Of a stretch of DNA of 64,000 bases, positions 41,744 through 63,539 are shown one piece after another. Location of the stretch: contig JARFTX010000014.1 of the NCBI GenBank assembly GCA_029289265.1, positions 1 through 64,000 on the forward strand, in the 5' to 3' direction. The notes beneath the pieces were generated by a model that saw only the letters and a list, made by a program, of their open reading frames with translations, had not been told where the DNA came from and did not search any database. The DNA is from Gammaproteobacteria bacterium (GTDB lineage Bacteria > Pseudomonadota > Gammaproteobacteria > Burkholderiales > Rhodocyclaceae). Position 1 is the first letter of the stretch. The number at the start of each line of letters is the position of its first letter. The position numbers were made by a program, and so were the translations under genes.

Positions 41744-44554
41744 GTGTCGATCTTCATATCCTACTCGCGCCGGGACGCCGACTTCGTGCGTCGCCTGCAT
41801 CTCGCGCTCGAGGCGCGTCAGCGCGACACGTGGGTCGACTGGGAAGGGATTCCGCCCAGCGCCGAGTGGATGCGAGAGATCGAAGCCGCCATCGACGCCG
41901 CCGAGGCGGTCGTCTTCGTGATCAGTCCGGATGCTGTCGCGTCTGCCGTTTGCCTGCGCGAACTGGCTCATGCCGAAGCGCAAAACAAGCGCCTGCTTCC
42001 GGTCGTCTGCCGCGACACCGATGCAGCAGCCGTGCCGCTGGCATTGGCGCGCCTGAACTGGGTGCGGTTCGATGATCGTGACGGCTTCGACGACGCAGTC
42101 TGCACCCTTCTTCAGGCCGTCGACACCGATCTGGATTGGGTGCGAGCCCACACCCGGCTCCTGCTGAGAGCCACCGAATGGGCGTCGAAGGCGCGCAACC
42201 CTGGCCTCGCCCTGCACGGTTCCGAGTTGGAAGCGGCCGAGCAATGGCTCGTCGCGGGTCCGACCAAGGAGCCGCGCCCGACTGCGCTGCAGACGACTTA
42301 CGTCATCGAGAGCCGCCGACGGGCGACCCGGCGCCGCATGCAGTTTCTTGGCGCGACGACGGCAGCAGCCATCGTGATTGCCGTGCTCGGCACGCTATTC
42401 ATCCATCAGCGCCAGGAAACCGCACGACAGGAGGCCTTGGCCACCGCGCGCCGGCTCGCCGCAGTCGCCGAGCGCGTGCGCGAACAGCCCTCGTTCGCCA
42501 GCCCCACCGACAACCCGCTGGAGACCAGCCTGCAGCTCGCGGCCGAGGCACTGCGCCGACTCATCGACCTGGACGAGCGCTCACTCGAGGTCGAACTCGC
42601 ACTCCGCCGTGCGCTGGGTCCGATGCCGTTTGCTGTACCCACCCCTGCCCCGGATCCGAATCCCCGATACGACTTCGAGCAGGTCGTTTTCACCTCCGAC
42701 CGGCTTGCCGCCGTCAGCGGCGAGCCCTTCTCGACGCACCGCTGGGATGCCCAGACTCTGCAGCCGCTGCCCGGCCGCCTGCACGGCTTCGAGCACAAGC
42801 CGAAGGCGCTGTCTCCCGACGGCCAATTCGTCGCCACGACGCCGCGCGACGACCGCGAAAGCGCCGTCGACATCTGGGCGATCGACGGCCCCGCGCCACT
42901 GAGCCGCATTCCCGCCGGCCCCGGCACCGTAGGGGCGGTGGCGCTCCTTCCCGGCGGCGCCCATGCCGTGGTAAGCACTCGGCGCTACCATCGCGGCGAG
43001 GACTGGACGGACTACGCCACGGCACTGTGGCGCACGCGGGATCCGGAAATCGTGGCGAGACTGCCGGGTGTCGAGATCGCGCACCCGAGCGCCGACGGGC
43101 GTCACCTCGCCGGCCACCTGGGCGAGCGCCTTCTGGTGTGGGAGACGCAGCGCCTGCTGGCCGGCGACCTCGCGCCACGCATCGATCTCGGCCCGGCCAG
43201 CTGGTCGGAGTTCAGCGCCGACGGGCGCCACCTGATCGTGTTTCGCGACGACCCGTCTGCGGACGTGGAGGTATGGAGCGTCGCCTCGTGGCAGCCGACG
43301 GCGCGCCTGCCCGAGGCGCTAACCGGGCGACTCGGGCCCGACAGCCGTCTTGTCGCGGTACTCGACGCGAGCGACCGTAAGTTGCTGCGCATCGTCGAGG
43401 TAGCGACCCGCCGCGAGCAGGCGCGGATCTTCGCCGGAATACCCGGACCGCAAGTCGCCTTCAGCTCCGATGGCAAGCGCGTCGCGGTAGGGGGCCTCAG
43501 GCGTATCGATGTGTGGCTCATGCCGGAGCCAGGCGGTGCCGCCGCAACCTTGGCCGCCGGCCCGATCACCCAGATCGCCTTCGATGCCGGCTCACGTCGG
43601 CTGTTGCTGTTGGATCCGGCAGGAATCCGCAGCTGGGAGGTGGGCGAAACGCAGGCGTCGGCACGGCGCGACTGGCCGATGGGCGGAGAAGTCCGGGCCG
43701 TATCGGCCGACGGCCGGCGCGTCGCTGTCGCCAGCGGTGATGGCCGGGTGATCGTGGCCGGAGCAGGCGACGGCGACGAACAGATCGGCATACCCCTTAC
43801 CGGGCCCGTACACGCGCTGGCCTTGAGTCCGGGCGCACGCTTCCTGGCCGTCGCCACTGCCGAGCGTCGGCTCCTCCTGGCACAGACCGCACCAGCCCAG
43901 GTCCTGGCATCGATCGCGCTGCCCGGCGAGGCTACGCCGATCGAGCTCGCCGTCTCGGACGAGGGTGATCAGGTAGTGGCACTGATGCGATACGCTCCGT
44001 CGAGGATCGGCGAGAGAATGGAATTGCTGGTTTGGCAACGCGGCGCCGCGTCGGAACTGTCGAGTATGGGGGTCGGTCGGCAGGACAGCGGGCTGGCGGC
44101 CAACGTATGCGCCCTGGGGCCGCAAGGCCGTCGCATTGCCGTCAGCAACTCCCGCACCTCTGTCCAGGTGCGGGACGCTCGCAGTGGAAGCGAACTCCTG
44201 ACAGCCGACGAGGCGGGCGGGCGCGAGCGCTGCACCTTCAGTCCGGACGAACGCTACCTGGCGATCACCGGCGCCGATGACAGCGTGCGGGTGTGGGATG
44301 TCGAGCAGCGCAGGGAAATCGCTCGCCTCGAAAGCCTGCCCAACGTCGCCGGCCTCGCCTTCAGCCCCGACATGCGGACCCTGGCCACGCTTTCCAGCGA
44401 CGGGACGGTCCAGACCTGGGCGCTCGGCTACCGCGAACTCCTGGAGAGCGCCTGCCTGCGGCTGCGCAGCAATCTCTCTGACCACGACTGGGCGCGCTAC
44501 ATCGGGGGAACGCGTAACCCCACCGTCGCATGTCCCGGGCTGGCTACACCCTGA
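41744..44554 (+). CDS. TIR domain - transmembrane - WD40-like propeller protein
   Basis: A 936-aa protein. Residues 1-135 form a TIR domain: MSIFISYSRRDADFVRRL, TWVDWEGIPPSAEW, FVISPDAVASAVCLRELAHA with the conserved Glu73 that is catalytic in NADase TIRs, and LLPVVCRDTDAAAVP. A basic patch (RRRATRRR, 191-198) precedes one TM helix (about 201-220). A coiled stretch and a long C-terminal half with many WD40-type blades follow (for example ALSPGARFLAVATAERRLLL, FSPDERYLAITGADDSVRVWD, FSPDMRTLATLSSDGTVQTW). Start is GTG 41744 with GGGGGTG upstream. TIR-TM-propeller proteins are widespread in bacteria; a role in NAD-depleting defence or in signalling is an inference. Confidence 0.85.
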   Translation: MSIFISYSRRDADFVRRLHLALEARQRDTWVDWEGIPPSAEWMREIEAAIDAAEAVVFVISPDAVASAVCLRELAHAEAQNKRLLPVVCRDTDAAAVPLALARLNWVRFDDRDGFDDAVCTLLQAVDTDLDWVRAHTRLLLRATEWASKARNPGLALHGSELEAAEQWLVAGPTKEPRPTALQTTYVIESRRRATRRRMQFLGATTAAAIVIAVLGTLFIHQRQETARQEALATARRLAAVAERVREQPSFASPTDNPLETSLQLAAEALRRLIDLDERSLEVELALRRALGPMPFAVPTPAPDPNPRYDFEQVVFTSDRLAAVSGEPFSTHRWDAQTLQPLPGRLHGFEHKPKALSPDGQFVATTPRDDRESAVDIWAIDGPAPLSRIPAGPGTVGAVALLPGGAHAVVSTRRYHRGEDWTDYATALWRTRDPEIVARLPGVEIAHPSADGRHLAGHLGERLLVWETQRLLAGDLAPRIDLGPASWSEFSADGRHLIVFRDDPSADVEVWSVASWQPTARLPEALTGRLGPDSRLVAVLDASDRKLLRIVEVATRREQARIFAGIPGPQVAFSSDGKRVAVGGLRRIDVWLMPEPGGAAATLAAGPITQIAFDAGSRRLLLLDPAGIRSWEVGETQASARRDWPMGGEVRAVSADGRRVAVASGDGRVIVAGAGDGDEQIGIPLTGPVHALALSPGARFLAVATAERRLLLAQTAPAQVLASIALPGEATPIELAVSDEGDQVVALMRYAPSRIGERMELLVWQRGAASELSSMGVGRQDSGLAANVCALGPQGRRIAVSNSRTSVQVRDARSGSELLTADEAGGRERCTFSPDERYLAITGADDSVRVWDVEQRREIARLESLPNVAGLAFSPDMRTLATLSSDGTVQTWALGYRELLESACLRLRSNLSDHDWARYIGGTRNPTVACPGLATP

Positions 44555-54606: not shown

Positions 54607-55803
54607 TCACCCCTTCACACACACCACCTGCTTGAGCGTGTGCAGCACCTCGGTGAGATCGCGCTGGTTGGCCATCACGGCATCGATGTCCTTGTAGGCA
54701 CCGGGAATCTCGTCGACCACGCCCTTGTCCTTGCGGCAGATCACCCCTTCGGTCTGGCGGGCGAGATCCTGTTCGTTGAACCGTTTTGCGGCGGCGGTGC
54801 GGCTCATGCGTCGGCCTGCCCCATGAGCGCTGGAACAGAAGCTCTCTGGATTGCCCCGACCCCGCACGATGTAGCTTCGCGCCCCCATGCTGCCCGGCAC
54901 GATCCCGAGCTCGCCCGCACCCGCGCGGATCGCGCCCTTGCGGGTGACCCACACATCGGCGCCGAAGTGGCGTTCCCGCGCGACATAGTTGTGATGGCAG
55001 TTCACCGCCTCGGTGGTGACCGAGAACGGCGGAAGATGGCGTGCCAGCGCCGTGAGCACCAGATCGAGCATGGTCCGGCGATTGGCCATCGCGTACTCCT
55101 GCGCCCAATGCACCGCCTCGACGTAATCCGCGAAGTGCGCGCTGCCTTCCTCGAAATAGGCGAGATCCCGGTCGGGAAGATGGACCGTGTGCCGCTCCAT
55201 GTCCTTGCGGGCGAGTTCGATGAAGTAGGTCGCGATCGCGTTGCCAACGCCACGACTGCCGGAGTGCAGCATCACCCAGAGCCGATCGTGCTCGTCCAGG
55301 CACACCTCGATGAAGTGGTTGCCCCCGCCGAGCGTGCCCATCTGATTGGCCCATTTCGAGAACGTGCCGAACGCCTTGAGCAACCGCGGATGGCGCTTCA
55401 CCAATGCGGCGAGCCCGGGCTCGAAGGGTCGGACCGCCTGGATCTGCACCCGCGCGTCCTTGTGCTGGGCCCGGCCGACCGGCACGTCCCGGCTGATCTG
55501 ATCGAACACCTTTCTGAGGCGCTTCTCGTCGATGTCGTTCCCGGTGAGCGACAGGCGCGCCGCGACCATGCCGCAGCCGATATCGACACCGACCGCCGCC
55601 GGAATGATCGCGCGATGGGTCGCGATGACCGACCCGATGGTGGCGCCGATCCCGAGATGCACATCGGGCATCGCCGCCACATGGTGATGGACGAAGGGCA
55701 GGGTCGCGATGTTGGAAAGCTGCTCGATCGAGCGCTCATCGACATCGTCGGTCCAGATCTTGACGGGCACCCCGGCACCGGCGAGCTCACGTTGAATGGG
55801 CAT
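54607..55803 (-). CDS. rtcB: RtcB family RNA ligase (3'-phosphate RNA-splicing ligase)
   Basis: A 398-aa GTP/Mn-dependent ligase that joins 2',3'-cyclic-phosphate or 3'-phosphate RNA ends to 5'-OH ends; used in RNA repair. All family blocks are present: MPDVHLGIGATIGSVIATH, VGVDIGCGMVAARL (the metal-binding Cys), GTLGGGNHFIEV, MLHSGSRGVGNAI, NCHHNYVARERHFGADVW, then the catalytic His in SSAHGAGRRMSR (guanylylated His in the family). Length is near the 408 aa of E. coli RtcB. Start 55803 is preferred, as GAGG is 9 nt upstream; the ATG at 55809 would be too close. No rtcA or rtcR neighbour. Confidence 0.95.
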   Translation of the reverse strand: MPIQRELAGAGVPVKIWTDDVDERSIEQLSNIATLPFVHHHVAAMPDVHLGIGATIGSVIATHRAIIPAAVGVDIGCGMVAARLSLTGNDIDEKRLRKVFDQISRDVPVGRAQHKDARVQIQAVRPFEPGLAALVKRHPRLLKAFGTFSKWANQMGTLGGGNHFIEVCLDEHDRLWVMLHSGSRGVGNAIATYFIELARKDMERHTVHLPDRDLAYFEEGSAHFADYVEAVHWAQEYAMANRRTMLDLVLTALARHLPPFSVTTEAVNCHHNYVARERHFGADVWVTRKGAIRAGAGELGIVPGSMGARSYIVRGRGNPESFCSSAHGAGRRMSRTAAAKRFNEQDLARQTEGVICRKDKGVVDEIPGAYKDIDAVMANQRDLTEVLHTLKQVVCVKG

Positions 55804-55946
55804 GCTCATTCACCTCAAGTCGATGCGTACTGCCGCCTGAGCAGGTCTTCACGGGCGCATGCGACGGGCGTCCAGATAGTCACCGCCGTGAATGAGCCAG
55901 TGGACGCGCTTGATCTGGCCGAGCGGGCATGCGCCGGCGCCCTCAC

Positions 55947-56075
55947 TCACCCCGGGTAGCGCTTCCCGCAGTACACAAGGTCCTCGCCCTTCTCGCAATC
56001 CCCCACCCTCCACTGCGCCACGGTCGCGTCCTCAAGCGGGCCGCCGAGGAGGATTGGTTTAAAAGCCCTGAAACA
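55947..56075 (-). pseudogene. Possible C-terminal coding remnant, family not recognised
   Basis: On the minus strand a frame reading PILLGGPLEDATVAQWRVGD followed by CEKGEDLVYCGKRYPG and a TGA stop runs out of the end of ccdB in a different frame. Its composition looks protein-like and it carries two Cys, but it has no start of its own. It may be the tail of a gene truncated when the ccdAB module was inserted, or a chance reading. Confidence 0.3.
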
Positions 56076-56358
56076 AGAGATCCAAAGCCGCAACGATTTC
56101 TGACCGCTTGGATTCAAGTGACACCAGCGGCTGCTTGAGCAACGGGTTCGGAACGGCCGCCAAGCCTTGGGTCATCATTACAACGCGATGCCCCTCGACT
56201 TCAAAAACCGGGTTGAGCGTTTTGGCGAACTGAGGAATTTCACCTTCAGGGAACAGTGGAACCACCACCCGTGTTGCGAAATGGTCATTCACGTCCGCCT
56301 GCACATTGAGCAGATACCCGGCGTGATCAGGGTTTCGATAGACCGTGAATTGCGCCAT
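56059..56358 (-). CDS. ccdB: CcdB family toxin (type II TA)
   Basis: A 99-aa toxin related to CcdB, a gyrase poison in F plasmid. It matches by MAQFTVYRNPDHAGYLLNVQ, DHFATRVVVPLFPEGEIPQF, LNPVFEVEGHRVVMMTQGLA and a C-terminal LLFQGF that corresponds to the WGI tail essential for gyrase binding. It is shorter or similar in length to F CcdB (101 aa) and appears intact. Its ATG shares a base with the ccdA stop (TGATG), as usual for such pairs. Chromosomal copy next to a tRNA and integron, so probably a stabilising module of the accessory region. Confidence 0.9.
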   Translation of the reverse strand: MAQFTVYRNPDHAGYLLNVQADVNDHFATRVVVPLFPEGEIPQFAKTLNPVFEVEGHRVVMMTQGLAAVPNPLLKQPLVSLESKRSEIVAALDLLFQGF

Positions 56359-56603
56359 CAGAAGGTCCTGTACTTAGCCAGGGGCAAGCCGTTCTTCTCG
56401 ACGTAGGCATTCCAACACTCGAACGCTTCGGCGTTTTCAGCAACCCAAAGCTCTGCGCGCTTTTCAGCCACGGCTCTGGCCACACCGGCCTCTGCGGCTT
56501 GCGAAACATTGATCCGCAATGCCTTCGCTTCTGCAAGGAGCGGTTCAGCCAATGAGACGTTGGTGGCCTTTTTGGGAGCGGTTGCGTATTGATAATTGGA
56601 CAT
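56358..56603 (-). CDS. ccdA: CcdA family antitoxin
   Basis: An 81-aa antitoxin. The N-terminal half has a ribbon-helix-helix-like DNA-binding region (ATNVSLAEPLLAEAKALRIN), and the C-terminal half wraps the toxin (AELWVAENAEAFECWNAYVE, NGLPLAKYRTF). The pattern 'NVSLS..L..AR.LGINVS' is the CcdA hallmark. The stop overlaps the ccdB start. An AGAAGG ribosome-binding site precedes the ATG. It is expected to repress its own operon; no exact operator was identified. Confidence 0.9.
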   Translation of the reverse strand: MSNYQYATAPKKATNVSLAEPLLAEAKALRINVSQAAEAGVARAVAEKRAELWVAENAEAFECWNAYVEKNGLPLAKYRTF

Positions 56604-56818
56604 GGCTCGGCCTTCTGATGAGGTATGAGCAAGAGCGTACTACGCATGCGCCCGAAAGAAAACATCCTGAATGCGCATCGATGGACACATCGGAGCCTCG
56701 GTATCTCTGCAGGATCGAGCAGTTGCTCGAGCACATCCCAGACACCAAGGTCACGGAGTGCAAAGGCCCCATGAGCCCATCAGCGAAATGAGGCCCATGC
56801 TCTTTCGACTGGCGTGAA

Positions 56819-56835
56819 CTAATCCAATGGATTAG
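56819..56835. promoter_or_regulatory. Palindrome in front of higB, likely HigA operator
   Basis: CTAATCC-AAT-GGATTAG is a perfect 7-bp inverted repeat with 3-nt spacer, ending 10 bp before the higB start. A short palindrome in this position is typical of the HTH antitoxin binding site of type II toxin-antitoxin operons. Confidence 0.7.
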
Positions 56836-56845
56836 ATTCGAACCC

Positions 56846-57183
56846 ATGCAAACGCTTGCCGAGACGCCCGAGTACATCCGCCGTGCCGAGAGGTTGCTGG
56901 CCGACGATGAGCGTCGCGACATCCTCAATTATCTGGCGTCGCATCCCAAGGCTGGCGATCTGGTGGAGCACCGGAGGCATTCGGAAGCTGCGCTGGTCGC
57001 GGGGCGGCAGGGGAAAGAGCGGTGGCGTGCGGATCATCTGCTACTTTCACAACGAAACGATGCCGCTCTACCTGCTGACCGTTTTCGCCAAGAACGAGCG
57101 AGCGCGCGAATCTCAGCAAGGCCGAGAGAAACATGCTGGCTGATCTGGTCGAGCTGCTGGTGTCGGCCTGGCAACAGGAGTGA
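56846..57183 (+). pseudogene. higB: RelE/HigB-like toxin with two frameshifts
   Basis: The toxin can be followed in three frames. It begins MQTLAETPEYIRRAERLLAD and runs to KAGDLVE. It then needs a +1/-2 shift to continue GTGGIRKLRWSRGGRGKSGG and ICYFHNETMPLYLLTVFAKN. After ER a 4-bp tandem duplication (GAGCGAGC at about 57094-57103) shifts again to NLSKAERNMLADLVELLVSA WQQE and the natural stop TGA at 57181-57183. The order is that of RelE-fold HigB-2-like mRNA interferases. As it stands no full toxin can be made, while the antitoxin downstream is intact. Confidence 0.8.
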
Positions 57184-57187
57184 AACC

Positions 57188-57475
57188 ATGAGCAAGGCTT
57201 TCGACAGCATCAAGCAGGGACTTTCTGAAGCCATCGCTCACGCGAAAGGCGAGAACCAGGGCGTGAAGGTCTATCGTCCCCATGCGGTCGACGTGAAAGC
57301 GCTGCGCCAACGCGTTCATATGACGCAAGAGCAGTTCGCCGCCCGCTTCGGTTTTTCTGTCGCAACGGTGAGACATTGGGAGCGGGGAGACCGACGTCCG
57401 CAAGGACCGGCCCTGGTGCTTCTCAACCTGATCGAGAAGAACCACACCGCTGTGCTGAGCGCGCTTGAGGCGTAA
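57188..57475 (+). CDS. higA: HigA-like HTH antitoxin (intact)
   Basis: A 95-aa Xre-type antitoxin. A helix-turn-helix lies at about 41-75 (VKALRQRVHMTQEQFAARFG, FSVATVRHWERGDRRPQGPA). The N-terminal part (MSKAFDSIKQGLSEAIAHAK) matches the usual start of the HigA/NadS-like antitoxins encoded after RelE-type toxins. It begins 4 bp after the toxin's natural stop. It would bind the palindrome at 56819-56835 and autorepress. Likely retained after toxin inactivation. Confidence 0.88.
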   Translation: MSKAFDSIKQGLSEAIAHAKGENQGVKVYRPHAVDVKALRQRVHMTQEQFAARFGFSVATVRHWERGDRRPQGPALVLLNLIEKNHTAVLSALEA

Positions 57476-57489
57476 CATCCGGAAAGACA

Positions 57490-57513
57490 CTGGGCGTAGG
57501 TGCCCAGCTTTAT
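57490..57513 (+). terminator. Putative terminator after higA
   Basis: CTGGGC-GTAGGT-GCCCAG (57490-57507) followed by CTTTAT. A 6-bp stem and weak T-run directly after the higA stop. Confidence 0.5.
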
Positions 57514-57529
57514 CCTCACCGGAGAAATG

Positions 57530-57567
57530 AAAAAGACGCTGACTTCTACATGAAATCAGCGCCTTTT
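57530..57567 (-). terminator. Terminator downstream of tRNA-Arg
   Basis: On the minus strand GGCGCTGA pairs with TCAGCGTC (one G-U wobble) across a 13-nt loop, followed by TTTTT. It lies just after the 3' end of the minus-strand tRNA. Confidence 0.65.
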
Positions 57568-57573
57568 GATGTT

Positions 57574-57650
57574 TGGCGCGCCCGAGACGATTCGAACGTC
57601 CGACCCCTGCCTTCGGAGGGCAGTACTCTATCCAGCTGAGCTACGGGCGC
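57574..57650 (-). tRNA. tRNA-Arg (anticodon CCG)
   Basis: The minus strand shows a complete cloverleaf: acceptor GCGCCCG/CGGGCGC, D arm with GCTCAGCTGGATAGAG, anticodon stem-loop CTGCC-CTCCGAA-GGCAG giving anticodon CCG, T arm with GTTCGAATC, and an encoded CCA (57574-57576). It reads CGG arginine codons. It borders a region with toxin-antitoxin genes, IS relic and an integron, and tRNA genes often serve as insertion targets. Confidence 0.93.
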
Positions 57651-57820
57651 TTGGGGAACGAGCAACGGGCGACCCGTTTTCTCGAAGCGGGCAAGCTTAC
57701 CGCTGTTCGGCGCCAAAGTCCATGGCGGCGCTGGTCGGCACGATCGCATGTACCACCGGTGCCAAGGGGAACCCAATTTTCCGCACCTCCCCTGCGGGAC
57801 TTGAATCTTCCCCACCCGGC

Positions 57821-57946
57821 TCATGCTTCGGCCTCTTCCGGGCGGACGAGACCGGCCTTCAACTTCTCTTTCAGTCGGTGCGAGTTGCCGCGAATGTTCA
57901 GCGTCACGGCGTGATGCGGTAGCCGATCGAGGATCGCGGTGGAGCC
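57821..57946 (-). pseudogene. istB: IS21-family IstB C-terminal relic
   Basis: The minus-strand frame from GSTAILDRLPHHAVTLNIRG to NSHRLKEKLKAGLVRPEE matches the end of IstB, the AAA+ helper ATPase of IS21 elements (typical: AILDRLLHHA..L.I.G.S.RLK.K...GL). Only about 41 codons remain, with no IstA and no terminal repeat seen. It marks a past insertion. Confidence 0.7.
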
Positions 57947-57977
57947 GCTCGATCTCCGCAGCAATGCGCTGCCGCCG

Positions 57978-58094
57978 CTACGCGGCGGGCAGCGCCTCCA
58001 CGCTTGCGGCGCCGCGCTCGCGCAGCGCCTCGACCAGCGCGGCGAGACGCGCATCGATCAGCGGATCGTAGAGACCATCTGGCAGCGCGATCAT
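57978..58094 (-). pseudogene. Short 5' gene fragment, possibly of a PLD/DEAD-type helicase (DUF3427)
   Basis: Reads MIALPDGLYDPLIDARLAAL then VEALRERGAASVEALPAA and a TAG stop, next to the IstB relic. The phrase LPDGLYD.LI..RLA resembles the first residues of DUF3427-type helicases. Its ATG overlaps the stop of an upstream ORF tail, as in an operon. Assignment is weak. Confidence 0.3.
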
Positions 58095-58292
58095 GCGGGT
58101 CTGCCCCAGCTCAGACCTCCAAACTTCGACCATTCGGAGCCGAGACACTCCCCAATGTCATTGCTTAAGGCCGTGAGGAAATTCTCGATGGATTGCAGCT
58201 TCATGCCGTAGTATGCCTTCGCGCACCTCCGGTCCGAGGACTCGGACACGTTTACGCCATATCCGGCGTACATGCACGGGCATAGCACACAG

Positions 58293-59243
58293 ATGGCACG
58301 ACGTCGCTACCGAAGGAACGAAGGTCTGTTCGAAATCGCTGCACGGTCGGACTGGCGTGTCGCGGCTGGACTCGCTGCCACCTGTGCGCTTGGCGCGGGC
58401 GCACTCATTCCCGGCCTCGCCGCGCAAAACCCGCTCCTTGGCCCGGTTGCCGCGGTCTTCGCGCCCCTCGGATGGCTGTTCGCATTCGCCTTCGCCTGCA
58501 TTGCCGCGGTGCGCTTTGCGAAGCAGCGCACCGCGGCACCAGCCCTCGCCCCGGATTCACGCGTCGCCACCCGGCCGCGCCGAAGCAGCCCCGGGCGTCC
58601 CACCGCCCGAGGCCATGACGTCGACACCTCCCCGTCTGACAGCGGACCCGCGCAGTCGCCCGCAGCCGGCCCTGCTGGACCGGAGCGTCCGGACCACTGG
58701 TCGCTCGACGTGCTCGAGCAGATCGACTGGAAGCGCTTTGAGGACTTGTGCTGCGAGTTCTATCGCGTCAAGGGAATTCGCGCCGAGACCACACCCCTTG
58801 GCGCCGACGGTGGCATCGACGTCCGCCTCTTCCAGGATTCCACCGAGCCCGACCAGGTCACCGCCATCGTCCAGTGCAAGGCCTTGAGCAAGCAAGTCGG
58901 CGTCAAGCTGGTGCGCGAGTTGCGCGGCGTGATGGCCCACGAAAAGGTGCAAAAGGCCTTCTTCATGGCCCCCAGCGGCTTCACCGAAGATGCCCGCGCC
59001 TTCGCCACCGAAAACCGCATCACCTTGCTCGACGGCAAGCTCTTCCTGGCGATGCTGCAGCGTCTGCCGGAGGAAGCCGGCCGGCGCTTACTCGAGTTCG
59101 CGACTGAAGGCGATTGGACGACGCCGAGTTGCCCGAGCTGCGGGACCAAGATGGCCGCCAGAGAGGGCCAGCGGGGTCCGTTCTGGGGCTGCTCAACATT
59201 TCCAAGGTGCCGCGGAAAACTCCAGATGCGCACGTCGACCTAG
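58293..59243 (+). CDS. Membrane-anchored Mrr-like restriction endonuclease with zinc ribbon
   Basis: A 316-aa protein. Two TM helices lie at about 22-43 and 51-74, followed by a Pro/Ser-rich linker. The Mrr_cat nuclease domain (about 140-260) carries IDWKRFEDLCCEFYRVKGIR, the active-site Asp176 in GADGGIDVRLF and Gln194-Cys-Lys196 in AIVQCKALSK, then FFMAPSGFTEDARAFA. A C-terminal topoisomerase-type C4 zinc ribbon has Cys280, Cys283, Cys300 and Cys306. It probably cleaves DNA near the inner membrane. An in-frame ATG at 58272 would add 7 residues. Only 6 bp separate its stop from the next gene. Confidence 0.85.
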   Translation: MARRRYRRNEGLFEIAARSDWRVAAGLAATCALGAGALIPGLAAQNPLLGPVAAVFAPLGWLFAFAFACIAAVRFAKQRTAAPALAPDSRVATRPRRSSPGRPTARGHDVDTSPSDSGPAQSPAAGPAGPERPDHWSLDVLEQIDWKRFEDLCCEFYRVKGIRAETTPLGADGGIDVRLFQDSTEPDQVTAIVQCKALSKQVGVKLVRELRGVMAHEKVQKAFFMAPSGFTEDARAFATENRITLLDGKLFLAMLQRLPEEAGRRLLEFATEGDWTTPSCPSCGTKMAAREGQRGPFWGCSTFPRCRGKLQMRTST

Positions 59244-59249
59244 CCACAC

Positions 59250-59852
59250 ATGAGCATGACTGCACGCATTCGCCATCTGAACCCCCTGTACCTTGTGCTG
59301 CTGCTCGGCGCGACGCCCCTCGCAACGCCCGTCGACGTGGCCGCTCAGGCAATCTATCGTTGCGAACGCGACGGGCGCGTCACCTACACGGACGCGCCCT
59401 GCGACCAGCCCGTCATCCGACATGGCACCGCAGCCGGCGGCAATGCGCCGCCCAACAATACGCAAACAGTCATAGGCGGCGGGTATCAGAACCCATACGG
59501 CCCTTGGCGCGGGCAGGCGCAATTTCAGCTCACACACATCGGCGCGCGCTCCGACACGATCCACCAAGTGGTCCACCTCGTTCTCGAAATTGCCGAGGAC
59601 GGCAAGGTCGCGGGTACCAGCCGGGAAAATGGTTGCGACATGCTTGGCATCGCCACGCCTGGCGCAACGCCGAGAATCCTCAATCTCGACGTCACCCTCT
59701 CACGCTGCAGCGCGAAGGACCTCAACCGTCGATACCGTGGCACGATCCTGCTGAATCCCGCAGACCGATCCGCGCACCTCAGCCTGAATGCGCAGCGCGT
59801 GATTCCTGGGATGAGTCTGGTCGCTGACATCAAGGCTGCGCTGCGGAGATGA
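59250..59852 (+). CDS. DUF4124 domain-containing exported protein
   Basis: A 200-aa protein with a signal peptide (PLYLVLLLGATPLATPVDVA, cleavage near AAQA). The DUF4124 motif follows directly: AIYRCERDGRVTYTDAPCDQ with the two conserved cysteines. The C-terminal 100 residues are beta-rich and contain two further cysteines (ENGCDMLG, SRCSAKDLN). DUF4124 proteins are common in Beta/Gammaproteobacteria and have no known function. It follows the Mrr-like gene by 6 bp and may be read with it. Confidence 0.82.
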   Translation: MSMTARIRHLNPLYLVLLLGATPLATPVDVAAQAIYRCERDGRVTYTDAPCDQPVIRHGTAAGGNAPPNNTQTVIGGGYQNPYGPWRGQAQFQLTHIGARSDTIHQVVHLVLEIAEDGKVAGTSRENGCDMLGIATPGATPRILNLDVTLSRCSAKDLNRRYRGTILLNPADRSAHLSLNAQRVIPGMSLVADIKAALRR

Positions 59853-60038
59853 TGGGTGCGTTGGCAGTCGTTAAGGGAAAAGGCTGGGTAGCAGTCTTGG
59901 ATAGGTTCTGTTCGGCAGGCCTCGGCGCAGGGGCAGATTGGAGATGACATCTCATCGGCCAGAGGTGCCGCTCAATGCTCGGCGGCTGGACTACCGCTAT
60001 CGACCCAATGCGGCCGCTGAGCTTTTGGGAAAGCTGTC

Positions 60039-60109
60039 GTTCAACGTGCGAATTCACAGGCGCTGCGCGGCTTCATCGCGCAGCGTCCTTGTGGAATGAC
60101 CAGTTAAAC
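60039..60109 (-). other. attC recombination site 1 (71 bp), integron cassette end
   Basis: Minus-strand reading: begins GTTTAAC (RYYYAAC) and ends GTTGAAC (GTTRRRY). The centre forms a strong imperfect hairpin (GCGCTGCGCG with CGCGCAGCGT). The cassette gene's TAA stop lies inside the first box, as is common for integron cassettes. Confidence 0.82.
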
Positions 60110-60742
60110 ATCGGTAGGCGATAGATCATCGAACTGCTTTGCTTCCATGTTTCGACGGCGCTCATCAAGGAGTTCTCCGTCAAACATCCAATAGCCAGGC
60201 CCACTCGCCGCAGGTGTGCTGTAACCAAGACTGTGCAATGCCTTCAGTGCTGCGGCAGAAAGGCTCAGCACTTCGCCTTGGAAGTCAACCTTGCCGTCAT
60301 CCACAACGGTGGCAGTTATGTTCTCATCGCGGGAAAGCGTGAGAACGTCTCCTGCCTTTATTCCGAGGGCGTCAAGCTTGAGCCGCGGCCTACGCGATTT
60401 GGCCTTTTCGAGAGCCGCTTGTTCTTCCACATCAATCTGTGCGGCTCCCGGAGTGATTTCCTTGAACTCACCAATGCTGATTGCAAGGACAACCTTTTCT
60501 GGGTCGATTCTGAAGAACTCCCGTTTCGGATTTACTCGACCTTCCGAAAATAGTTGGTGGAGTGTTTTCTCGAGCTTCGCGCAATCCTTCACCTCGGCGG
60601 CGAAATAGCATTCAAATGGCAGCGGCACTCCAGAATGTGCACTGAGTTGGCCAATTCGTGCCTCAACGCTATCGGTTGTCAGACCAACTTTCACGAGGCC
60701 CGGCATGGCCTCATTGGTAAGAACGTAAATAATGTTCGGCAT
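60104..60742 (-). CDS. Cassette C: GIY-YIG (T5orf172-like) nuclease-domain protein
   Basis: A 212-aa protein in the third cassette. The N-terminal domain (1-95) has NIIYVLTNEAMPGLVKVGLT (GIY-YIG 'IYVLTN...VKVG'), then EARIGQLSAHSGVPLPFECY, KLEKTLHQLFSEGRVNPKRE and FFRIDPE, fitting the T5orf172/MUG113 subgroup. The C-terminal half (about 125-200) with GEVLSLSAAALKALHSLGYS and GPGYWMFDGELLDERRR resembles DUF4357, often fused to GIY-YIG or restriction proteins. Start ATG 60742 (a TTG at 60751 is in frame). A DNA-processing or defence role is inferred. Confidence 0.8.
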   Translation of the reverse strand: MPNIIYVLTNEAMPGLVKVGLTTDSVEARIGQLSAHSGVPLPFECYFAAEVKDCAKLEKTLHQLFSEGRVNPKREFFRIDPEKVVLAISIGEFKEITPGAAQIDVEEQAALEKAKSRRPRLKLDALGIKAGDVLTLSRDENITATVVDDGKVDFQGEVLSLSAAALKALHSLGYSTPAASGPGYWMFDGELLDERRRNMEAKQFDDLSPTDV

Positions 60743-60764
60743 TCCGCGCAACCTTTGTTGAGAT

Positions 60765-60854
60765 GTTTAACGTCAGCGATGAGCCGCGAGCAAAAGCTCG
60801 TCGCTTTTGCGAGTCGGGCGACCAACGGGAGCGGACTCGATCGCTTTGTTAGGC
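60765..60854 (-). other. attC recombination site 2 (90 bp)
   Basis: Minus strand: GCCTAAC ... GTTAAAC with classical flanks (GCCTAACAAAGCGATCGAG at the start, TCGCTGACGTTAAAC at the end) and an internal inverted repeat CGACGAGCTTTTGCTCG. It lies 24 bp after the stop of the cassette B gene and 22 bp before the start of the cassette C gene. Confidence 0.9.
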
Positions 60855-60878
60855 ACTGAGCCGCCCTTCCGGCAGTGA

Positions 60879-61898
60879 CTACTCAGAACCCCGCGGTGCG
60901 GTGTTCTTAGTAAGCAACTCTAAGACCGACTTTGAGGTTGCCAGCGATTCACCCCGCTGCTGCGAAAATCCTGTGTCTTGGGGCGAGAAGATGCATGACG
61001 CCGCGTGGGCCAGGACGATATCCTGCGTGCCGCCCTCACCTGCTGCCTCGACAAGAGCGCGGTATGTAAGCAATGCGTTCTGACGATGCCGATTCACAAC
61101 GGCATTGTGCTTGTGCGTCGTGTAATTGCGCGCAGACATGATGAGCATATATGCAAGTACCGCAAAGACCAGAACCTTGCTCGTTGCAAGCTGAATAGCT
61201 TCGAATGTGTTGGCAGGCGAGAGCCATTCCCACTTGTGTAGAGACAAGCTGGCAACAGCGAAGAACGCAACAGCGCCAGCAAACTTGTACGTGTAATCTA
61301 GCCATGTAGCGGCTAGCGTTTCCTGCGACTCTGCCTCCCCCTTGAAGTAACTGGCTTGCTGAGAAACGCCTTGCTCAGACGCAACCGCCCTAATCGCTGC
61401 CAAGGCAGCATCGGCATCAACCTTGGCATTGCCAAGCTCCTTCGTCAGCTTTTCCGACTGATCCTTGATCGATTGAATTGTTGCACGCGCCTGACTCTCA
61501 AGAAGGCTCGTGTCGGTTATTCTCGCTACACCGTAAGCAATGAACTGCCATAGCTGATCGAATACTTGATCTCGACGGGACTGAAGACCGCTGATTAGCT
61601 GCTTCCTCGTATTGCTTGCATTGTTCGCAGTCGCATCAAAGTCGAGGATCTGCTTGAAGACGTTGAAGTCCGCATCCGCCTGACCTTGAATTGCGTTAAG
61701 CTGACCGTCGGTGAAATCATCCAGAGCTGTGATCGGAATTCGCTTGTAGACGTCGATGACGGCCTCCGCGAATGGCACGGCTTCCACAAAGCTCATCTGC
61801 CTACCGAGATCATCCTCGCGACCAAGTGTCGCAGGATCAAACTGCTGAACGCGACTTAGAGACTCTGTGCAGGTTTCAAGTATTGATTTCGTTGCCAT
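60879..61898 (-). CDS. Cassette B: two-TM coiled-coil protein, unknown
   Basis: A 339-aa protein encoded by the second cassette. Residues 1-200 are helical and rich in coiled-coil heptads (TIQSIKDQSEKLTKELGNAK). Two TM helices follow at about 215-232 (FAGAVAFFAVASLSLHKW) and 243-262 (LVFAVLAYMLIMSARNY). A cytoplasmic C-terminal helical region reads HKHNAVVNRHRQNALLTYRA, TQDIVLAHAASCIFSPQDTG. This layout recalls two-TM effectors of anti-phage systems, but no family is assigned. Base composition is lower in GC than the chromosome to the left. Confidence 0.7.
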   Translation of the reverse strand: MATKSILETCTESLSRVQQFDPATLGREDDLGRQMSFVEAVPFAEAVIDVYKRIPITALDDFTDGQLNAIQGQADADFNVFKQILDFDATANNASNTRKQLISGLQSRRDQVFDQLWQFIAYGVARITDTSLLESQARATIQSIKDQSEKLTKELGNAKVDADAALAAIRAVASEQGVSQQASYFKGEAESQETLAATWLDYTYKFAGAVAFFAVASLSLHKWEWLSPANTFEAIQLATSKVLVFAVLAYMLIMSARNYTTHKHNAVVNRHRQNALLTYRALVEAAGEGGTQDIVLAHAASCIFSPQDTGFSQQRGESLATSKSVLELLTKNTAPRGSE

Positions 61899-61951
61899 GC
61901 GCCCCCCTGTTTTTGTTGGCAGTTGCAGTCTAAACGCGCATCACCTGTGCG

Positions 61952-62050
61952 GCCTAACGACAAGCATCAGATGCGTGGTGAAGTGGCATGCCCCTTGCGC
62001 AAGTAAGGGGCAGCACTCTTTGCCACGTCAGCTGCATGCACTTGCTGGGC
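61952..62050 (-). other. attC recombination site 3 (99 bp)
   Basis: Minus strand: starts GCCCAGC (one mismatch to RYYYAAC), ends TCGTTAGGC (GTTRRRY). Long central inverted repeat TGCCCCTTAC/GCAAGGGGCA. It starts 13 bp after the stop of the cassette A gene. Confidence 0.82.
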
Positions 62051-62062
62051 GCGCGCATGAAG

Positions 62063-62860
62063 TCAGCTCGATTCCTGGCCATTTTGTGCTGTACCAGCTA
62101 AGCTGGACTCAATCGCTGTCTGTGCTGACTGAGCAATCCTTGCGAAGCGCTCCTGCAGTGGATAGAGACCATCCACGAAACCGTTTCTGATTGCATCGAG
62201 ATAGCCATTCCGCACCTCAGACAACTCGAGGACTGTGCTATCCGTGCATGCCGCCTCGTAGAGTTCAGAGACTCTTCGCAAGTCAGGTCGGCCATGCTCA
62301 CTCATTACGTGACTAAAAAGCTTCGTGCATAAGTGGCGCATATAGAGCTCCGTCATCGCGCGATACGGCTTCAAGAAGGCATTCAAAGACATATAGGTGT
62401 TGAATTGCTCTTCGTAGAGACATGCAATTGAGCTCTCTATCCAAATCGCACGGCAGTAGTTCCGAAGTAGTTCGGCTTCCTTTCTTTGAATGTCTTCGTC
62501 CGTCTCAGAGCCATAAATCGCCGCGAGACATACGTGGCGGAGCGCCTCATCACCGCCGAGGGTTAGATAGTGATCAGAGACAGCGTTATCAGCCTGCTCG
62601 AGCAATAAGATACGGCATAGTCGCGCTTGATCGGATTTAGTCTTTTCGTCCGAGATAGCGCGAAGTCGTACGGATATAGACTCAACAAGATCAGCTATTG
62701 CATGGGAGGACGCATCAGATCGCTGGAGACGCTTCACATATGTCGTAACGGGCTCGTTGCGTGCCACGGCTTCTGCATAGAACCGAAATATCGCTTGCAA
62801 ATCGTGATAGCTGAGCCGGGGCTTGAAGCGTGCCCATAGGTGCCTCCACAAAATCGCCAC
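62063..62860 (-). CDS. Cassette A: hypothetical soluble helical protein
   Basis: A 265-aa protein in the first cassette after attI. It starts at GTG 62860 with AGGAGGAG 5 nt upstream (an upstream in-frame TTG lies inside attI). Residues are mostly helical: YHDLQAIFRFYAEAVARNEP, DLVESISVRLRAISDEKTKS, LLRNYCRAIWIESSIACLYE and MTELYMRHLCTKLFSHVMSE. No TM segment and no recognised motif. Codon usage is less GC-biased than in the genes before 55000, which fits an acquired cassette. Confidence 0.65.
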   Translation of the reverse strand: MAILWRHLWARFKPRLSYHDLQAIFRFYAEAVARNEPVTTYVKRLQRSDASSHAIADLVESISVRLRAISDEKTKSDQARLCRILLLEQADNAVSDHYLTLGGDEALRHVCLAAIYGSETDEDIQRKEAELLRNYCRAIWIESSIACLYEEQFNTYMSLNAFLKPYRAMTELYMRHLCTKLFSHVMSEHGRPDLRRVSELYEAACTDSTVLELSEVRNGYLDAIRNGFVDGLYPLQERFARIAQSAQTAIESSLAGTAQNGQESS

Positions 62861-62902
62861 CGTGACTCCTCCTATACCTCGACGTGAAGCATTTGATTGA
62901 AC

Positions 62903-62946
62903 GCCCAACTTTGTTTTCTGGCGACAGCTATGCCGCGTAACATCGG
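62903..62946 (-). other. attI-like integron primary recombination site
   Basis: The minus strand reads CCGATGTTACGCGGCATAGC, then TGTCGCCAGAAAACAAAGTT and GGGC. Compared with the last 44 bp of class 1 attI1 (recalled), it has equal length and differs at about 8 positions; the end AAAACAAAGTT-RRRY is nearly identical. The cassette A gene follows directly. This indicates the proximal end of an integron array. Confidence 0.75.
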
Positions 62947-63539
62947 AATGCCTGATAACGTGTTCTGCAAGTTACTGTTTAGAAGCAGATATTACGCGAA
63001 CCACAGAATAACAAGGCAGGAAAAGCAGCAGCCGACTGATTTCCGGGTCGAGGCGACCGATCTTGCATACAGGCCAGTAGCATACCGCCTCGCCCCGATG
63101 ACCGCTATCCGGGTCGGGTGACCAGTGACGGCTTCTGGCCGATCTGAGTCGGTCACGACTCGTCGCCTGACCGGCAGCACCGGCCGACGAGAAGTCTGTC
63201 TGCGCGCCGTACCCCGCATACCCGCTCCACGGCCGGAGCGGACGGTGAGCTGACAAGCATTGAATGACCGCGTCCGGGCAAACTGCGGCCTGTCGCCCTT
63301 CGGGCAGTATCGCCCACTGGGCCTGTCTTTGTGCCGCAAACGACCGGTGCAGCTAGCCGCCAATCAGATGCGAGTGGCGCCCAGCCGACCGTAGCGGTGG
63401 CGGCGTCTGGTTGCCATCTAGCACTCCTGCATCGTCATTAGCACAGCCTACGCTAAGGGATCGGCTAGTCGCTCCTCAATGCCCAGATCAGCTACGACTG
63501 CTTCCATGTCGCTGCCGAACTGCCTGCGACGGGCGGTTA
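62947..63539. other. Non-coding region where an integrase would be expected
   Basis: About 590 bp without a credible gene. The integron integrase should start within about 200 bp of attI on the plus strand, or end there on the minus strand; both strands show only short unrelated readings. The stretch 63130-63380 is GC-rich with imperfect inverted repeats around CCCTTCGGGCAGTATCGCCC. It gives the impression of an extragenic repeat, but I cannot confirm copies elsewhere. Confidence 0.5.

Follow-up and report, generated by a model that had tools for sequence, protein, structure and literature searches.

The window, meaning the whole 64,000-nucleotide stretch of DNA that was analysed, carries at 41744-44554 an open frame that starts with GTG and encodes a protein of 936 amino acids, in which a TIR domain, a linker, one hydrophobic segment and a WD40-like half follow one another. 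The gene and its parts, with residues numbered from the GTG codon, are as follows.

41744..44554, + strand: whole gene, a single open frame with a GTG start, for the 936-aa TIR-linker-TM-WD40 protein
41750..42109, + strand: TIR domain, residues 3-122, N-terminal and predicted cytoplasmic (TIR_2 Pfam match, AlphaFold model, TIR structure matches)
41960..41962, + strand: codon of Glu73, predicted catalytic (alignment with Cat1 Glu74; conserved in 18/18)
42119..42343, + strand: conserved helical linker, residues 126-200, Arg-rich at its end (alignment, model helices)
42347..42403, + strand: single predicted TM helix, residues about 202-220 (hydropathy, charge bias)
42665..44428, + strand: ~14 degenerate WD40-like blades, residues ~308-895, predicted periplasmic sensor (Pfam, model strands)
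44453..44533, + strand: C-terminal Cys904 and Cys930, candidate disulfide (pair kept across propeller-type members)

Pfam analysis of the protein gave TIR_2 at E 2.5e-25 (89.8 bits against a curated cut-off of 28) and WD40 at E 8.7e-16, the propeller models spanning residues ~653-917. Since these scores are joined by homologues with an identical order of parts, chance can be ruled out, and the reading of the first-pass annotation, a TIR domain joined through one TM helix to a WD40-like half, is borne out by the 936-aa frame, the Pfam matches and the hydropathy. Modelled with AlphaFold, residues 1-245 reach a mean pLDDT of 88.4 and contain helices at 130-148 and 159-174, then one continuous helix from 181 to 244 that runs through the TM segment. 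In the full-length model, strands extend over residues 310-893 with a mean pLDDT of only 66.7, too low for blades to be counted or a disulfide distance to be taken from it, leaving the blade number a count by eye, and the propeller matches WD40 structures with Z ~30 across ~320 aligned residues. Read in this way from the repeats between residues ~308 and 895, the ~14 blades would be enough for two 7-bladed propellers. Tandem Repeats Finder detected no DNA tandem repeat in the window's propeller, which suggests that this domain is older and degenerate, without recent repeat expansion. The same program reported 123- and 120-base arrays in two cyanobacterial relatives, L002 and L052 (L002:8919-10606 and L052:5927-7896), whose closely similar 120-123-base WD40 repeats are a sign of recent expansion of the blades and perhaps of sensor diversification.

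In its own 3.76-Mb genome, the full-length protein matches no locus besides its own gene, and TIR_2 is found five more times, one of these on an nSTAND1 protein. The GC content of the gene (0.69-0.70) is within the range of its surroundings, and a genomic island at this position, judged by composition, was rejected. The upstream neighbour is a protein that matches EF-hand weakly; on the downstream side there are an NMT1-like protein and a TRAP-type DctM permease, and HpaB, DUF6498, DUF945, DUF2339, MOSC and RtcB genes are found further out. To survey neighbours, 58 ORFs representing the window and 14 relatives were compared with PADLOC and Pfam; they came from 218 mechanically predicted ORFs at 18 loci, a set that includes family members and frames that may not be genes. 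The most frequent Pfam family among them reached 3/58 (UvrB/UvrC motif) and the most frequent PADLOC family 2/58. Single neighbours match defence models (type II/III methyltransferases, SspA/DndA, type IV restriction, among the best 25 of 71 families). A defence island was rejected, with no Pfam or PADLOC family widely recurrent in the 58 ORFs, and the claim that the gene stands alone, without a known defence partner, is supported by ten ordinary neighbours in the window and no widely recurring gene across the survey. Because no partner gene recurs, direct NAD+ depletion by the protein itself fits the genomic context. Elsewhere in the window, GC falls from ~0.70 to 0.52-0.65 at 55500-63000, around a tRNA-Arg (57574-57650), and this segment, which is perhaps a genomic island, includes by eye an Mrr-type restriction enzyme-like frame (58272-59243) and a GIY-YIG/T5orf172-like one (60104-60751).

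Residues of the TIR active site

The family alignment comprises 19 rows, of which one (L047) starts inside the TIR domain, so that 18 sequences are compared at the early TIR positions. Ser6, Tyr7, Asp32, Ile36, Ser67, Cys70 and Glu73 are identical in all 18, the window protein included. In the profile search against solved chains, Cat1 ranks first (E 6.2e-12), with TLR6 a close second (1.5e-11); the window TIR sequence searched alone against the PDB retrieved only TLR15, at E 0.002. The alignment to Cat1 is gapless from residue 5 past 74 and places S7, D33, S68 and E74 of Cat1 on S6, D32, S67 and E73, and Cat1 K121-Y122 correspond to N105-W106 by an offset derived from the printed alignment. 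Position 106 is W in 13, Y in 5 and H in 1 of the 19 sequences. Cat1 H8, N9, N10 and K121 are unmatched, the window protein having Y7, S8, R9 and N105 there. According to the study of Cat1 (PMC12162218), its site is lined by S7, H8, N9, N10, D33, S68 and E74 of one TIR and by K121 and Y122 of the neighbouring TIR; the N10A, D33A, S68A, E74A, K121A and Y122A variants are defective in cells, toxicity is lost in D33A, S68A and E74A, and D33A cuts the in vitro activity only partly. The window protein has the residues expected of a NADase TIR, a catalytic Glu with the NAD-pocket Asp and Ser, in E73, D32, S67 and S6. Glu73, located in a CxxE motif after beta-C, had been picked out as catalytic-type, and its alignment with Cat1 Glu74 and its conservation in 18/18 support its placement at the catalytic position.

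The fold of the TIR domain was compared with solved structures using the model of the TIR-linker-TM part, which was also searched with Foldseek and was well covered over residues 1-130. SPARTA and SARM1 TIRs occupy most of the top rows with Z 17-18 (highest Z 18.4), while a Hydra Toll-related TIR ties at Z 18.0 and IL-1RAcP and MyD88 reach 16.6. The structure check put forward in the first-pass annotation was thus answered in part: the model resembles the SPARTA and SARM1 enzymes, but since the Hydra Toll-related TIR scores equally, the fold does not separate an enzyme from a scaffold. Nor is conservation of the Glu sufficient by itself, because one TLR subgroup also keeps it, in >90% of cases according to PMC7075850. 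Together with the TLR and MyD88 TIRs, which rank close to it among solved sequences and folds, and with the absence in 18/18 sequences of a Trp described below, this would agree with a non-enzymatic TIR acting as an assembly module, in which an outside signal clusters the TIRs and recruits a separate cytoplasmic effector in the manner of MyD88 and TLRs. We judge such a module unlikely: Ser6, Asp32, Ser67 and Glu73 are kept in 18/18, position 106 is W or Y in 18/19, and no Pfam family exceeds 3 among the 58 neighbours.

The Trp found four residues before the Glu in Cat1 (W70) and AbTir (W204) is Val69 in the window protein, and none of the 18 family members aligned has a Trp there (V 12, I 2, Y 2, T 1, A 1). 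A Trp at this position is a strongly, not absolutely, conserved mark of cyclic-ADPR TIRs, one that the window protein lacks. PMC11374754 and PMC10937652 report that AbTir requires this Trp for 2'cADPR, that W204A also strongly lowers NADase activity, and that in TcpC the Trp is dispensable and the product is linear ADPR. As the Trp is missing in 18/18, the predicted product leans to linear ADPR, with the caveat that Cat1 has a Trp at -4 yet produces linear ADPR; the missing Trp could instead mean weak or no activity. The same absence of the cyclisation-linked Trp argues against a TIR whose product would be a cyclic ADPR-type messenger acting on an effector that is not linked to it, as in a Thoeris-like system split over the genome. 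The five other TIR_2 matches, with one on an nSTAND1 protein, could point to further TIR-signalling parts of that kind, but no SIR2/SLOG family, as expected of a Thoeris effector, was found in the ten window neighbours, and we hold such a messenger to be quite improbable.

Membrane topology and exchange of the outer sensor

In the window protein, residues 202-220 form the top hydrophobic segment (Kyte-Doolittle 2.22), the next peak (1.76 at residue 53) being the TIR core. All 19 sequences have their top hydrophobic segment behind the linker; a second segment, at residue 531, is nearly equal to it in L043 (1.97 vs 1.99), and in L049 the top segment is weak (1.51). The 15 residues before the TM contain 3-6 K/R and those after it 0-4, the net charge ranges from +2 to +5 ahead of the TM and from -3 to +2 beyond it, and the charge before exceeds the charge after in 19/19. 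The same holds for three plasmid-encoded proteins, with K/R before/after of 4/2 in P0003, 4/1 in P0004 (for the segment ahead of CHASE2) and 7/2 in P0005, whereas the bias is absent from a fourth, P0002 (4 and 4). Past the last blade, a Cys pair with a spacing of 13-29 is present in 17/18 complete propeller-type members, a count that omits L005 (cut by the contig end) and L047, P0002, P0004 and P0005 (other C-termini), and that takes L049 as propeller-type by eye only (no Pfam WD40 match at 0.01). The exception, L044, has 0 Cys beyond residue 300; in L004 the first Cys of the pair is shifted (spacing 13), and in 10/18 the pair is the only Cys past residue 300. A different Cys distribution is seen at L043:8905-11829, whose WD40 half holds 18 Cys with 7/9 consecutive pairs separated by <=13 residues, as if the blade hairpins were disulfide-bonded; such Cys abundance is unusual in WD40 proteins.

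Sequences that carry other outer parts were examined as well. L047 has the TIR-linker unit with TPR as its outer part. In the Kovacikia plasmid protein P0004 (L053:3690-6836), one chain has three stretches that match TIR_2, pieces that by eye resemble the linker, and then CHASE2 (E 4.3e-56); the Bernardetia one, P0005 (L054:3687-6191), likewise has three TIR_2 stretches and linker-like pieces, followed by a TM and a coiled coil. PMC8195603 counts CHASE2 as an extracellular domain and as a receptor for small molecules. In the Agrobacterium protein P0002, WD40 is followed by Peptidase_M23 (E 4.5e-21), with metal ligands partly lost by eye; this single chain of TIR, linker, TM, WD40 and C-terminal Peptidase_M23, encoded on a pAt plasmid (L051:3962-6892), is a possible peptidoglycan-sensing TIR receptor. 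The family appears from these sequences to keep its inner TIR-linker half and to exchange the outer sensor. One further protein, L131 (frame from 1590), from a genome of the window's own taxonomic family, combines by eye a TIR and a CHAT-like central part with one TM and, at the C-terminus, two LysM-like repeats; it may be another cell-wall-facing TIR receptor that does not have the window-type linker.

The propeller is placed outside because of the charge bias in 19/19, the Cys pair in 17/18 and the relatives bearing CHASE2 or a peptidase domain, and the location of the sensor half on the far side of the membrane, as first suggested, thus holds as a prediction. Bacterial WD40 domains are often thought to be cytoplasmic, the topology is predicted only and P0002 is without charge bias, as would be expected if the hydrophobic stretch did not cross the membrane in this way and the propeller stayed in the cytoplasm; given the bias, the Cys pair and the relatives in which CHASE2 or M23 occupies the propeller's side, we consider such an arrangement very improbable. 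At the level of sequence, the parts, their order and conservation, the topology indicators and the swapping of sensors are established, and the well-conserved receptor architecture is real. The window protein has the traits by which we propose to delimit a TIR-linker-TM family: an HT...W...T linker directly after the TIR, one TM and the positive side towards the TIR.

Relatives of the TIR-linker-TM half are patchily distributed over several phyla. Ten loci, confirmed out of 36 pattern matches, come from named species genomes (five from Cyanobacteria, two from Chloroflexi, two from one Alphaproteobacterium and one from Myxococcales), eight additional homologue loci come from other genomes, and plasmid homologues were found in Tolypothrix, Kovacikia, Agrobacterium and Bernardetia (4/72,556 plasmid records). 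The TIR-linker-TM part is present in 5/273 other genomes of the class, one further match covering the TIR alone; in a phylum sample that overlaps the class sample, 5/398 (counting the window's genome) have matches that extend along the TIR-linker-TM profile and 18 have matches over about the TIR only. Among 60 relatives, 16 gave partial matches and 16 likewise TIR matches, and none of the matches listed has the NTPase-free full-length layout. Phage records gave 0 matches in 50,697 at E 1e-10, and no relative was found in viral contigs with the six short peptide patterns searched. The absence of viral relatives from these searches, the ordinary neighbours in the window and the relative with a peptidoglycan-peptidase domain, which hints at cell-wall sensing, would suit an envelope-stress or developmental regulator acting via NAD or ADPR rather than a defence device. 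We see this role as rather unlikely, the patchy spread and the rarity of the full-length form standing against it, and plasmid copies and swapped sensors being more like conflict systems than housekeeping.

Link to nSTAND1 receptors and proposed mechanism

Linker residues His136, Thr137 and Thr180 are found in 19/19 rows. The idea that the linker is a known domain was rejected, as three family linkers gave Pfam matches of E 0.16 at best. A linker-only search of 252 genomes of the class gave 6 strong matches, all in TIR-linker-TM family proteins (own included), and one weak match to a TIR-nSTAND1-WD40 protein (L088); every match sits in a TIR-bearing protein, and a linker existing without TIR was therefore discarded. 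The linker-TM profile also matches 8/30 nSTAND1 loci, with E values that, for so small a set, run from 1.5e-7 to 0.007, and none of their ten-fold shuffles. These eight include L101, the nSTAND1 protein of the window's own genome, and not L088, which the linker search itself had retrieved. L126 and L127, from two genomes of the window's own family, have a TIR-(Walker A)-TM-WD40 layout and match the linker as well (E 8.7e-12 for L127), and L128, from the same order, shares this layout. These three, frames with hits to the TIR and to WD40 or the linker, had been candidates for NTPase-free members and were rejected when six stretches were rechecked, each having a Walker-A NTPase in its middle.

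With L088, L126 and L127, the window protein shares an N-terminal TIR, a related linker-TM and a C-terminal WD40, and L126 ends by eye in a Cys-pair motif of the same type. The NTPase that lies between TIR and linker in L088 (Pfam nSTAND1), L126 and L127 (Walker A motif) is absent from the window protein, whose best 25 of 34 Pfam matches (to E 0.021) contain no NTPase family and in which a motif scan found no G....GK[ST]. It therefore has the linker-TM of nSTAND1-WD40 proteins and lacks the NTPase that a STAND/NLR-type receptor carries between effector and sensor. In addition, the TIRs of the nSTAND1 relatives retain the Trp before the Glu, whereas the window protein does not. Judged by its sequence, it resembles an nSTAND1-type receptor that has TIR and membrane-sensor parts but no NTPase switch.

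Other known systems share some of these traits. Cat1 is the best solved profile match, with four active-site residues in common, but it has a CARF sensor for cA4, forms filament networks and is not described as a membrane receptor in the available text of PMC12162218. SPARTA TIR-APAZ and SARM1 have the TIR fold of the window protein; among the best 25 of 34 protein matches and in the ten neighbours, no APAZ/Argonaute family was found. SPARTA and SARM1 have APAZ/Argonaute or other sensing parts, without a TM receptor half. TIR-WD40 fusion is a known architecture in bacteria, and PkwA-type proteins hold effector and WD40 in one chain, with a kinase in place of the TIR. The WD40 domain of these receptor kinases (solved as 5yzv) matches residues 788-894. 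Animal Toll-like receptors likewise have a single TM, a repeat-type sensor outside and a TIR inside, but in the window protein the TIR is N-terminal, order and orientation are reversed and the sensor is a propeller; having neither an extracellular LRR nor a C-terminal TIR, it resembles them in plan, not in membership. The new part is the NTPase-free, outside-in layout with swappable sensors. In the literature consulted (titles and abstract openings, mostly outside subscription journals), no transmembrane bacterial TIR with an outside propeller is described. The occurrence of TIR effectors, of propellers and of CHASE2 in conflict systems is described in PMC7159879 and PMC8195603, and outside sensing is not a wholly new idea because some sensors of such systems are predicted to be periplasmic in PMC10907252.

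We give somewhat better than an even chance to a stand-alone membrane receptor in which a signal from the envelope leads to clustering of the TIRs and loss of NAD+. In such a receptor, the periplasmic C-terminal propeller would bind an envelope-level cue, possibly a phage, a toxin or a signal of cell-wall damage, and binding outside would cluster the chains, presumably by oligomerisation. The signal would pass inward through the single TM and the continuous helix 181-244, and the cytoplasmic TIRs would pair as in Cat1 to form a composite active site from Glu73, Asp32, Ser67 and Ser6 of one TIR and the aromatic residue 106 of the next. NAD+ would then be cleaved to nicotinamide and, most likely, linear ADP-ribose, leading to growth halt. 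The NADase activity, its product, the ligand and the role of the protein are predictions. As the family is rare and outside any evident defence island, a role in defence would be one assigned by analogy. A broader version, in which these proteins are bacterial counterparts of Toll-like receptors, is put forward more tentatively, as possible rather than probable: swappable ectodomains (WD40 propeller, CHASE2, TPR, or propeller with a peptidoglycan-peptidase-like domain) would sense envelope attack and activate the TIR NADase without NTPase, messenger or partner, and an early abortive defence would start at or before phage DNA entry.

In the literature consulted, other bacterial TIR systems appear to be cued from inside the cell, by capsids for Thoeris, target nucleic acid for SPARTA, cA4 for Cat1 and the phage protein YonE for SpbK. 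If the proposed receptor is correct, a transmembrane TIR receptor could hardly be simpler than this TIR enzyme wired outward by one helix, and a Toll-like plan would exist in bacteria with an enzyme-type TIR. The system is compact, and signal passage via one TM helix to a TIR could be studied in it by ectodomain swaps; as the window's own family also contains NTPase-bearing relatives, receptors that have the switch and receptors that lack it can be compared directly. In the genome of the window itself, L101 (contig C25, ~78.4-80 kb) is a very long frame with a MinD/ParA-like N-terminus (by eye), TIR_2, nSTAND1 and a similar linker-TM.
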